Below are positions 28,072-31,945 of a DNA stretch of 64,000 bases, in pieces. Made by a program: the position numbers and the translations under genes. The stretch lies in the NCBI RefSeq assembly GCF_026810225.1, contig NZ_CP113865.1:1012001-1076000 (forward strand), given 5' to 3'. Within the stretch, counting starts at the first letter, position 1. Every line of letters begins with the position of its first letter. Below the pieces are notes generated by a model. The model was not told the DNA's origin. It was given only the letters and a program-made list of their open reading frames with translations, and did not search any database. This stretch comes from Caldicellulosiruptor morganii (GTDB taxonomy: Bacteria > Bacillota > Thermoanaerobacteria > Caldicellulosiruptorales > Caldicellulosiruptoraceae).

Positions 28072-28956
28072 ATGAAAGCACTTGTAGATTGCATCCACTG
28101 CTATTTGAAACAAGCCGTTTCGTGTATGGAAATGGTAAACATACCTGATGAAAGAAAAATAGAAGTACTGTATATTCTTATGGATTTTATAAAAACTTTA
28201 GATCCACAGGCATCACCAGCTTACAATTCCTCACTTGTCTTACTTAAGACATACGAGATTATAAAAAACCGTGACCCATACTGCTACGCTAAAAAGCAGT
28301 CTAATGCGCTGGCACTTGAGCTATATGAAGATATGAAGAAGAAGGTTTTTGGTGCAAGTGACCCTCTTTACAGTGCTTTAAAAGTGGCTGTAGCAGGAAA
28401 TGTAATTGACCTGGGTATAAAAAGAGATTTTGATATTGAAACTGAGCTTTCCAATGCTTTTGGGTACGGTTTTTCAATAGATGACTATGCTTTATTAAAA
28501 GATAGAATTAAAACTGCCAAAGATATTGTAATTGCTGGAGACAATGCAGGAGAGATTGTATTTGACAAGATTTTGGTAGAAGTACTAAGACAAATGGGAA
28601 AGAGTGTATACTACATAGTGAAAACAGAGCCTATTTTGAATGATTCAACATTGGAAGATGCAAAAGAAGTTGGGATGGACAGAATTGCAAATGTTGTTGA
28701 TACAGGAGTAGGACTTCTGGGTATTCCAAAAAATTTAGTGTCTTTGGAAGTAAAACAATTAATCTTGAATGCTGATGTAATAATATCAAAAGGTCAGGCA
28801 AACTTTGAATCCCTTGATGAGTTCGAAGAAATTCAAGCTAACATATTCTATCTTCTGAAGATTAAGTGTGAATTCCTGGCAAAGAAACTTGGCTTTAAGC
28901 TGGGAGATTTGGTGCTGATTAATGGTGAAAATTCAAAAAAGAGGAATTCAGAATGA
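28072..28956 (+). CDS. DUF89 family metal-dependent phosphatase
   Basis: A 294-residue protein of the DUF89/ARMT1-like family (subfamily I), whose members are metal-dependent phosphatases thought to remove damaged phosphometabolites. The subfamily marks are an N-terminal DCIHCYLKQA with its CxxC, the DPYCYAKKQSN segment, the metal-site GDNAGEIVFDK (residues ~158-168), KTEPILNDSTLEDA and SKGQANFESL. The natural substrate is unknown. The stop lies 8 bp from that of the convergent deacetylase-like gene. ATG at 28072 behind AAAGGAG. Confidence 0.85.
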   Translation: MKALVDCIHCYLKQAVSCMEMVNIPDERKIEVLYILMDFIKTLDPQASPAYNSSLVLLKTYEIIKNRDPYCYAKKQSNALALELYEDMKKKVFGASDPLYSALKVAVAGNVIDLGIKRDFDIETELSNAFGYGFSIDDYALLKDRIKTAKDIVIAGDNAGEIVFDKILVEVLRQMGKSVYYIVKTEPILNDSTLEDAKEVGMDRIANVVDTGVGLLGIPKNLVSLEVKQLILNADVIISKGQANFESLDEFEEIQANIFYLLKIKCEFLAKKLGFKLGDLVLINGENSKKRNSE

Positions 28957-28964
28957 ACCAGAAA

Positions 28965-30287
28965 TTATTTTGAATATTCTTTTTTGTAAAATTCAAAATT
29001 TCTTTTGTCTTGCAATATTACATGAGAGAAACTGCCAGAGTCAGTATTAGAAAAAATATCGTATCCCTGATTATAACATTCATCACAGGCATCAAACGGT
29101 ATTACAATTGCAAGGACTCTATAGTTTAAACAAGTAGATTCAATAGTTATAAGACCAGAACATTTGTTACAAATCTTAATGTTTTCAAGCTGTTGTTCTA
29201 AAAATCCCATGGTATCGTAATATATTGATTTTTTTCGCGTAAAATGTTTCTGGTATTTTTTCTTTACATCATGTTCTATTTGTTCTTTGTTTTTCCATAT
29301 AATATATACATTTTCACATAATTTTTTAATATATTCACTTATTCTGGTTGATTGTCTTAATTTTTCCGGGTCATAATCAGGTTCTTTAATGTTGGAACAA
29401 TCAATTCCTGCAAGTGCAAATATAATTCCAAGGTTAACATAGGGCAATGCATCTTCAACAGAATAACCACCTTCTAATACAGAAATATGAGGATTTAGCT
29501 TTTCTGTGAGTTTGGCATAACCCTGAGCGGAAAAGTTCATATTTGTCAGAGGATCAGAATAATGATTGTCTTGTCCGGCTGAGTTTATGATAATTTCAGG
29601 TTTAAATTCTTCTAAGATGGGTAGAATTAGATTTTCCAGACAATACAAAAAGCCTTCGTCTGATGTATAAGGTGATAAAGGTAAGTTAAGGGTGTATCCA
29701 GTTGCAGCCGGTCCGCCTATTTCGTTTGTAAATCCACTTCCAGGGTAAAGTGTTCTACCATCCTGATGCAAGGATATAAAAAGAACATCTTTGTCGTTCC
29801 AGAATATGTCCTGTGTTCCGTCACCGTGATGGCAATCTGTATCAATGATTGCTATCTTTTTTATTTTATGCTCTTTTCTTAAATATTCCACCATTATTGC
29901 TTCATTGTTTATCACGCAAAATCCTCTATCACCGTACGTTATTCTATGTGCATGGTGACCGGGTGGACGAATTAAAGCAAATCCTTTTGCAATCTCATTT
30001 GACAAAATTTTTTTAACCAGTGTGATACAGCTGCTTGCTGCTATTTTGTGTGAAATGGTTGCAATAGAATCAACGTCGGGGATACAAAAGTGTGTAAGGT
30101 TTATATATTTGTCATCAATAATTTCAGGATTGTACACAAATATATTTTCATAATCAAAAAGACCCTCTTCTTCAATCTGGTCAATGGTATAAAGAAGTCT
30201 TTCTTCTCTTTCAGGATGTGTGGGTGTGATTCTCCAATCAAAAGCAGGAAAAAGGATAAGTCCAAGTTTGTTCTGTGCTTTTTGCAT
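28965..30287 (-). CDS. Histone deacetylase family protein with C-terminal CxxC...CxxC module
   Basis: A 440-residue zinc hydrolase of the arginase/deacetylase fold; relatives deacetylate proteins, acetyl-CoA synthetase (AcuC) or acetylpolyamines. Active-site elements are all present: RPPGHHAH (catalytic His pair, residues ~111-112), DTDCHHGDG (zinc Asp and His, ~149-157), SAGQDNHYSDPL (zinc Asp) and LEGGY (catalytic Tyr). After the catalytic domain the protein has ~130 extra residues with CNKC (~373-376) and CDEC (~401-404), probably a zinc ribbon. The ATG at 30287 behind GGAGG is chosen over an ATG at 30365 inside the upstream gene. It lies 17 bp after the hydantoinase-like gene, so the two form an operon. 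Confidence 0.88.
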   Translation of the reverse strand: MQKAQNKLGLILFPAFDWRITPTHPEREERLLYTIDQIEEEGLFDYENIFVYNPEIIDDKYINLTHFCIPDVDSIATISHKIAASSCITLVKKILSNEIAKGFALIRPPGHHAHRITYGDRGFCVINNEAIMVEYLRKEHKIKKIAIIDTDCHHGDGTQDIFWNDKDVLFISLHQDGRTLYPGSGFTNEIGGPAATGYTLNLPLSPYTSDEGFLYCLENLILPILEEFKPEIIINSAGQDNHYSDPLTNMNFSAQGYAKLTEKLNPHISVLEGGYSVEDALPYVNLGIIFALAGIDCSNIKEPDYDPEKLRQSTRISEYIKKLCENVYIIWKNKEQIEHDVKKKYQKHFTRKKSIYYDTMGFLEQQLENIKICNKCSGLITIESTCLNYRVLAIVIPFDACDECYNQGYDIFSNTDSGSFSHVILQDKRNFEFYKKEYSK

Positions 30288-30304
30288 CTTTAAAAAACCT
30301 CCGT

Positions 30305-31945
30305 TTATTCTAATTGTTGCAACTTGGGTTTTAGCTGTGCTTTTAACCTGATTATTTTGCCACAATATTTAAAGTTCCTGATCATGTTAAATGAATTTTC
30401 CTCAATAATTTCTATTTCGTCTACCGAAATGGCATCACCTGCTTCTATGATATTTTCTATCAAAAAATTCTTTGCCTGAGCAATAGAAAAATCTATATCA
30501 ACACTTTCATACCTGTTCAATTCGGGTATATAAACTATCCCCTGCTCAGTATCTGCAACCAGGTTATATTCTCTTGACAGTGAACCAAGTGCACAGCCTA
30601 TTGCGTTTGCCACCATATAATATTTGGGGACCTCTACCTTGATTTTTAACCTTTTTGCTAAATGTTCAGCAATCAAATCAGCAGCTCCGCCAATTACAAT
30701 TGCCTTTTCTGGTTCAAATTTTTCACCGTATAAAAGTTTTTGGATTGTATATATGGGAGCAGAATTAATATATTCAATGCCTTCTTTTATCTTTTTGCAA
30801 ATTAAACTTAGAGCTGTCTCTAATACTTCATTACAAAAATGTAGAGGAGGCATGTTCACTTTTTTGGATAAATTTATAAGTCGAGCTTGGAGCTTGCAAT
30901 CAAAACAGGATAAGTTCTTCATGTACAGCAGCACGTCAGAAAAGGTTACAATATTTTCTCTCTCGGTTGCAAATGGTTTTACAGTTTCAGGACCAACTGA
31001 AATATGATCTTCAAGTTTTACAAGACTGTCGCCGCCGATTCCCACAGACCTTGAATAAATGGCACGAACCAGGGTAGGATATCTTCCTATAGTTGCTCCA
31101 TACTGCTCTAAGACAAATTGACCATTACAGACAAATGAAATATCAGTAGTGGTACCGCCAATGTCAATTATAACTGCATTTGAGAGTGGCTTTGATAGGA
31201 TATAACCACCCTGTGCTGAAGCAGCGGGACCTGACAGGATTGAGAAAATGGGAAATTCTTTTAAACTGTCTAAATTAATAATTCCACCATCGGGTTTTTG
31301 AATAAATGCAATTTCTGGAGGTAGATTTTTTTCTTTTAAAAACTCCGAAATAGCATTATAAAGAAGCTTAAAGCTGCTATAAACAGCTGAATTCAAATAT
31401 GTTGAGAATACTCTTCTTGGAAAGTTCAGCTTTCCAGAAATTCTATGACCTTTTGAAATGAATTCAAAACCGTGCTTTTTTACAATTTCATATATTTCAT
31501 TCTCATGTTTTGGATTTCTCACAGAAAATTTACAGGCAATCCCCACGTGTTTAATTGAAAGCTTTTTAAATTCTGATATTGCTTTTTCTACCGTATCATG
31601 TGAAAAACCTTTTACTTCAATGCCCCTGTTGTTTATGTATCCATCAACCATGACATTGGCATCTGCACACATAAGAAAATCCGGATTTGCTCCAATCCCA
31701 TTTTCGATTATCATTCCAACTTTATCAAGTTTATTTTGAACAATTGCATTTGTGGTAATTGTAGTACTGAGTATAATGCGATTTAGAATAGGAGTATAAT
31801 CTGCTGTTATAAACTTTTGTAAACTTGTCAATACAGATGAAAGAATATCATCACCAAGTTCGAATTTTTTATAATCAACAACTTTATTGTTTTCAATTGC
31901 GACAATGTCAATATTTGTTCCACCCACATCAAGACCAATTATCAT
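30305..31945 (-). CDS. Hydantoinase/oxoprolinase family protein (HyuA-like ATPase)
   Basis: A 546-residue ASKHA-fold ATPase of the hydantoinase A/oxoprolinase group, which uses ATP to open cyclic amides. LDVGGTNIDIV at residues 4-14 is the first phosphate-binding loop, STTITTNAIV follows near 60, and the second loop IDIGGTTTDISFV is near 270, with GIGGDS and AIVIGGAADL further on. No HyuB partner is nearby; instead the deacetylase-like hydrolase follows at 17 bp. The substrate is unknown. It may be a large acyl/amide-processing partner of that enzyme. ATG at 31945. Confidence 0.85.
   Translation of the reverse strand: MIIGLDVGGTNIDIVAIENNKVVDYKKFELGDDILSSVLTSLQKFITADYTPILNRIILSTTITTNAIVQNKLDKVGMIIENGIGANPDFLMCADANVMVDGYINNRGIEVKGFSHDTVEKAISEFKKLSIKHVGIACKFSVRNPKHENEIYEIVKKHGFEFISKGHRISGKLNFPRRVFSTYLNSAVYSSFKLLYNAISEFLKEKNLPPEIAFIQKPDGGIINLDSLKEFPIFSILSGPAASAQGGYILSKPLSNAVIIDIGGTTTDISFVCNGQFVLEQYGATIGRYPTLVRAIYSRSVGIGGDSLVKLEDHISVGPETVKPFATERENIVTFSDVLLYMKNLSCFDCKLQARLINLSKKVNMPPLHFCNEVLETALSLICKKIKEGIEYINSAPIYTIQKLLYGEKFEPEKAIVIGGAADLIAEHLAKRLKIKVEVPKYYMVANAIGCALGSLSREYNLVADTEQGIVYIPELNRYESVDIDFSIAQAKNFLIENIIEAGDAISVDEIEIIEENSFNMIRNFKYCGKIIRLKAQLKPKLQQLE

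Follow-up and report, generated by a model that had tools for sequence, protein, structure and literature searches.

What task could be shared by a hydrolase of the histone deacetylase (HDAC) fold and a hydantoinase-type (HyuA) ATPase encoded side by side in Caldicellulosiruptor morganii? The window that we analyzed, a 64,000-nucleotide stretch of contig NZ_CP113865.1, carries both genes on the minus strand, and the original prediction had the ATPase open a lactam or hydantoin and the zinc enzyme remove the acyl group.

The gene pair and its predicted active sites

The features of the locus, in window coordinates, are:

30305..31945, minus strand: hyuA, HyuA-type ASKHA ATPase of 546 aa (Pfam Hydant_A_N and Hydantoinase_A), first gene of the pair
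28965..30287, minus strand: hdac, HDAC-fold predicted zinc amidohydrolase of class II type, 440 aa from the ATG, second gene of the pair
28968..29276, minus strand: C-terminal four-cysteine domain (CxxC...CxxC) of hdac, cysteines invariant in 41/41 members
30288..30304, minus strand: 17-bp gap between hyuA and hdac, read from the sequence
28072..28956, plus strand: DUF89/ARMT1-like damage-control phosphatase (PF01937, 3.7e-63), convergent and judged to lie outside the unit

A longer HDAC reading frame (28965-30365; 466 aa, TTG start) runs into hyuA; the ATG at 30287-30285 (MQKAQNKLG) yields the 440-aa protein and leaves 17 bp to the hyuA stop at 30305, and from this start the predicted arrangement of two minus-strand genes, with its coordinates and gap, held true. 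The reference used to search for relatives (28965-30290) is one codon longer than the ATG version. Pfam searches recovered Hist_deacetyl (E 2.3e-69) in the HDAC gene and Hydant_A_N (3.2e-26) and Hydantoinase_A (7.3e-32) in hyuA, and the genome (2.48 Mb, one contig) encodes a single PF00850 protein and a single Hydantoinase_A protein. In most relatives the two genes are in near-contact or overlap.

A structure search with the AF2 model of the HDAC protein (pLDDT 89.8) assigned residues 1-335 to the class II deacylase fold, with matches to Klebsiella HdaH (KpHdaH; 9glb; Z 40.6, rmsd 2.1 over 321 residues) and KDAC1 (8szu; Z 40.6, rmsd 2.2 over 318 residues). Residues H109, H110, D147, D149, H151, D238 and Y273 (numbered after the first row of alignment A1) are invariant in 41/41 members and include the predicted zinc ligands (D149, H151 and D238), the H109-H110 dyad and the tyrosine of the EGGY motif. 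Around D238 the motif reads GQDNH (Q237, N239 and H240 in 41/41) at the site where HDAC6 and KDAC1 carry GFDA. An arginine (R119) is inserted just before the GFC motif in every one of the 41 members, and DWD has become DTD, with T148 in place of the Trp in 38 members and a Ser there in the other 3. By these three changes (GFD to GQDNH, DWD to DTD and the added R119), the tunnel is set apart from that of canonical deacetylases. The gatekeeper position is DPL or DPI in 41/41, and the PEG gatekeeper and PIS motif that mark polyamine deacetylases (PMC11532494, in part) are absent; the RPP and EGGY motifs are also in keeping with an ordinary deacetylase that is specific for acetyl groups and works without ATP (PMC11532494, in part). 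Residues 336-438 contain C371, C374, C399 and C402 and are probably a zinc ribbon. This domain matched no Pfam family (Mut7-C and zf_Rg were weak matches, each in one member of 41) and had no significant match among PDB sequences (best E 0.073); as far as tested, it was seen in this HDAC subfamily only. Judged from the alignment, the invariant GQDNH motif and the four-cysteine domain make this HDAC a distinct subfamily.

The AF2 model of HyuA (pLDDT 90.5) has as its nearest solved folds N-methylhydantoinase (9h03), the acetone and acetophenone carboxylase subunits and caprolactamase (6yra), and the Hydant_A_N and Hydantoinase_A domains were found in 39/39 members of alignment A2. Residues D6, G8, G9, T10, D261, G263, G264, T265 and D268 are invariant in this alignment, forming the phosphate motifs D6-x-GGT and D261-x-GGT, and K27 is present in at least 90% of members. 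By motif position, D6, K27, D261 and D268 match the ATP- and substrate-site residues D11, K32, D295 and D302 of the caprolactamase subunit CapA, with K27 as the likely counterpart of K32; mutants of D11 and D295 had strongly reduced caprolactamase activity (PMC8453981, in part). The catalytic motifs, predicted to be intact, are indeed all present in both proteins; the window HyuA, however, lacks the conserved adenosine-side stretch GPxRxGPAxCLGGPxPTPTDA (residues ~318-340), where it reads SVGPETVKPFATERENIVTFSD and retains only T-x-x-D. Model confidence falls to 64-67 in blocks around these residues. Identity to the window copies is also much lower for HyuA (27-41%) than for HDAC (46-61%).

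Conservation of the pair

Whether the pair is limited to close relatives was the question set in advance for the neighborhood survey, and the answer was decisively negative: the pair is spread across the phylum and, among the best 80 of at least 567 relatives, also present in Desulfobacterota. In 117 of the 120 neighborhoods (L042-L161), the gene immediately upstream of HDAC, in the same orientation, is HyuA; this count retained six loci without a called HDAC ORF. Two of the three neighborhoods without an adjacent HyuA are at contig ends; in the other (L136), HyuA was not detected up to 10 kb upstream of HDAC. The full-length HDAC, including its C-terminal extension, was found in 12/13 genomes of the family, 18/37 of the class (E <= 1e-40) and 162/398 of the phylum (E <= 1e-50), the last number comprising 155 members (E <= about 1e-117) and 7 weaker matches that are other HDACs. 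The HyuA subfamily of the pair has members in 156/398 phylum genomes. When 84,980 species genomes were scanned using alignment A1, at least 567 relatives were confirmed, and the best 80 of these, which were kept, come from Clostridia, Tepidanaerobacteraceae, Tissierellia, Desulfobacterales, Syntrophales and Thiorhodococcus, plus single MAGs labeled Kiritimatiellae and Thermotogota.

Co-occurrence is almost complete: both genes are present in 152 of the 398 phylum genomes, HDAC only in 3, HyuA only in 4 and neither in 239 (Fisher p 4e-101, a statistic that ignores kinship). The seven weaker matches noted above (G038, G040, G086, G110, G118, G255 and G312; E 2.0e-63 to 8.9e-51) were left out of this count. 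At least 4 of the 7 discordant genomes reflect cut contigs or broken copies (five were inspected, G278 and G345 being outside these): in G130, G416 and G118 the contig end cuts the partner gene down to a fragment, and in G402 HyuA is followed by an N-terminal HDAC fragment only, away from the contig end. In G137 the contig stops ~340 nt past HyuA, with no HDAC match in that stretch. Thus, HyuA and the HDAC-fold protein are an obligate, widespread two-gene unit, and since the genes are almost never apart in many anaerobic bacteria, the pair is probably a single joint enzyme without a name.

Natural fusions, suggested by the long HDAC frames of G103, L122 and L138, were considered and rejected. 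In L122 and L138, a stretch of 11-14 nt separates the end of a distinct HyuA from the HDAC frame that follows, and the two matches in G103 are 39 nt apart in different frames. Carriage by phages or plasmids was likewise rejected; the search of viral_contigs returned no relative and the sole plasmid match (50% coverage, 37.8% identity) was an ordinary HDAC.

HyuB is the usual hydrolase partner of HyuA. As predicted for the locus, it is missing, and this extends to the whole genome: a search for PF02538 (Hydantoinase_B) that was positive in 6/14 control genomes returned 0 proteins. The view of HyuA and HDAC as one functional unit is supported as well. Among the 152 pair-bearing genomes, HyuB was detected in 28 and not detected in 124, up to two of which were outside the search (396 genomes, versus 398 in the other phylum searches). 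In one further locus (L162; OR846746.1 2495-8970), a 524-aa HyuA-type protein adjoins S-Me-THD (DUF917) and not HyuB, so such ATPases can adjoin other partners. The L162 record, unverified and labeled as a Listeria phage, holds a bacterial-looking permease - S-Me-THD - HyuA operon and is probably mislabeled host DNA. The predicted location outside any acu or polyamine operon was also supported; the window ORFs at 24-38 kb (seven assigned by Pfam, the rest by eye) include neither acuA nor acuB.

A proposed joint reaction and its alternatives

CapA and OplA are thought to activate a carbonyl oxygen by ATP-dependent phosphorylation. We propose, tentatively and at somewhat less than an even chance, that HyuA and HDAC form one ATP-driven amidohydrolase: HyuA would spend ATP to phosphorylate a stable amide or ring amide on its carbonyl oxygen and so activate it, and the HDAC-fold subunit, in the place of HyuB, would hydrolyze this activated intermediate at its Zn2+ site. 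This is the simplest reading because HyuA needs a hydrolase, its sole constant partner is the HDAC-fold zinc enzyme and most pair-bearing genomes showed no HyuB. We infer that the two proteins form a physical complex in which the intermediate is handed over, and the four-cysteine domain may be a binding site for the partner or for a macromolecular substrate. The pair stays together as its surroundings change among mutS/mutL, epmA, murB and many other settings. In 19 loci with mutS and mutL, evolutionary distances of HDAC and HyuA are correlated (r 0.79, partial 0.69), the highest value for either protein among five neighbors. HDAC has diverged less in these loci than MutS, MutL and MiaA have (mean p-distance 0.418, versus 0.496 for MutS).

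Several observations count against the ATP-driven reaction. HyuA is more variable than HDAC, which might befit a regulator, and the degenerate motif that it carries in the genus of the window could mean that the ATPase is regulatory rather than catalytic. The RPP and EGGY motifs also suit an ATP-independent, acetyl-specific deacetylase (PMC11532494, in part), and no HyuA was detected near the HDAC of L136.

The most serious alternative, which we regard as possible though rather unlikely, is that HDAC is a lysine deacylase acting on proteins (or on EF-P, ribosome or tRNA-associated targets), with the HyuA-like ATPase as a regulatory or chaperone partner and the cysteine domain recruiting a target in translation or mismatch repair. 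The class II fold, near KDAC1 and HDAC6, speaks for it, as do the genes around the pair. When one neighborhood was taken per family code across 40 families of the phylum, the order mutS-hyuA-hdac-mutL was found in 19/40 Bacillota families, in most cases preceded by miaB and ylbF and followed by a gene for an RsmJ-like methyltransferase, miaA and hfq (mutS, mutL, miaB, YlbF and RsmJ-like were checked by NCBIfam in one locus). Among the loci listed, epmA is the next gene after HDAC in 22/74 (L102, L158, L127 and 19 further loci, all Desulfobacterales), the denominator being 80 loci minus the six without a called HDAC ORF (L108, L112, L120, L134, L153 and L156); three of these epmA neighbors were verified as TIGR00462, above cut-off. 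Other loci have argS, gatA/gatC, tadA, rlmN, queA/tgt or dus nearby, as recognized by eye. The contexts vary by lineage, however, with EpmA adjacency limited to Desulfobacterales, and GQDNH and the added arginine suggest a non-standard substrate. Neighbors lean to housekeeping and translation, but the mutSL/miaA/hfq order is old and may reflect bystander linkage. In a quick HDAC tree (108 rows, midpoint root) the mutSL label has to change 6 times, and a large group of 84 rows, to which those of Desulfobacterota belong, is among the loci that lack it. Rooted at its midpoint, this tree fits an old mutSL position that would have been abandoned on one or a few occasions, the pair spreading to Desulfobacterota later. 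A housekeeping role, perhaps linked to translation or tRNA, perhaps in metabolite repair, is compatible with these neighbors. The original prediction mentioned neither the mutS-mutL setting nor the epmA linkage, nor the four-cysteine domain.

Other features of the surroundings recur locally. The RsmJ-like gene sits between mutL and miaA (e.g., L081:6681-7466) in 15/41 neighborhoods, its NCBIfam match being weak and far below cut-off, and some epmA loci have tadA, argS, gatC/gatA and mutL nearby (recognized by eye). In a second recurrent setting, murB lies just before the pair (L055, L071, L085, L086, L088, L093 and L100), and in most of these loci the pair is followed by genes for two small proteins, coiled-coil or rich in glutamine (all named by eye). 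The remaining surroundings differ between loci. The convergent DUF89 phosphatase gene does end 8 bp from the HDAC stop, as predicted, yet its suggested part in a shared theme did not survive the survey. DUF89 adjoins the pair in 12/12 loci of the same genus and in 0/28 others (1.5-kb flanks), and we rejected it as a third member of the unit, since it is a neighbor within the genus only.

Two successive enzymes, as originally imagined, with HyuA opening a lactam or hydantoin and HDAC deacylating the product so as to recover, for example, a damaged metabolite or a modified nucleoside, would accord with the chemistry of the two families and with the HyuAB/HyuC precedent for hydantoins (PMC8453981, in part). 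We find this unlikely: the ring-opening hydrolase that it requires was not detected in the 124 genomes noted above, and a linear pathway would not require two genes to co-occur almost perfectly with no transporter or other gene alongside. To our knowledge, HyuA alone does not carry out hydrolysis, which makes hydrolysis of its activated product by HDAC simpler than ring opening followed by deacylation. In caprolactamase, the HyuA-type subunit activates only, and the separate subunit CapB carries the zinc site that would hydrolyze the activated lactam (PMC8453981, in part).

Replacement of the 5-oxoprolinase PxpABC in pyroglutamate repair is more doubtful still. The window genome has no LamB_YcsF protein (PF03746, the PxpA family), and PxpA is less frequent in genomes with the pair (34/152) than in others (86/246), a weak trend (odds ratio 0.54, p 0.01) that ignores kinship. 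We know of no sequence relation between PxpABC and the HyuA-HDAC pair. Substitution was set aside given the weakness of this negative trend; 34 genomes carry the pair together with PxpA, two of them being among the 8 sampled from the same genus, and 160 carry neither. Coincidental neighborhood, for which only the variety of surroundings speaks, has next to no chance, being refuted by the adjacency and co-occurrence counts.

Comparison with known systems

Our literature search, which most subscription journals lay beyond, found no paper on the HyuA-HDAC pair, and the words hydantoinase and mutL are absent from the main text of PMC11532494. An unnamed pair carried by about four in ten of the sampled phylum genomes (152/398), and by Desulfobacterota, points to a conserved biochemical task for which we found no description. 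Should an ATPase be able to drive HDAC-fold enzymes, the treatment of bacterial HDAC homologues as stand-alone lysine or polyamine deacetylases would be an assumption to revise, and the names "histone deacetylase" and "hydantoinase" would mislead for every member. More speculatively, and with less confidence than in the joint reaction itself, an ASKHA kinase of the HyuA type that hands an activated amide to an HDAC-fold enzyme would be a further architecture of ATP-dependent amidohydrolases, and the pair an undescribed housekeeping enzyme of anaerobic bacteria, fixed early between mutS and mutL in Bacillota, with a modified nucleoside or a translation factor as its possible substrate.

The ATP-driven amidohydrolase that we favor resembles the family of HyuAB, caprolactamase CapAB and 5-oxoprolinase in two respects: an ASKHA ATPase of the HyuA type that keeps the two phosphate motifs as well as the conserved Lys and Asp, and a zinc hydrolase partner (here predicted) encoded by the adjacent gene. 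Unlike in that family, the partner has the HDAC fold and is not HyuB, and the HyuA protein is shorter (546 aa, versus 696 in CapA). The L162 system also places a short HyuA-type ATPase beside a non-HyuB protein, S-Me-THD, but the partner belongs to another family and is accompanied by a purine/allantoin-type permease. With PxpABC the pair has in common an ATP-hydrolyzing module and a separate metal hydrolase (PMC8453981, in part). The HDAC subunit, for its part, is like the class II deacylases KDAC1 and HdaH (cluster 1 of PMC11532494, in part) in fold, zinc site, His-His dyad and RPP, GFC and EGGY motifs, and differs from both in carrying GQDNH for GFD, DTD for DWD, an inserted arginine, a four-cysteine domain and an obligate ATPase partner.
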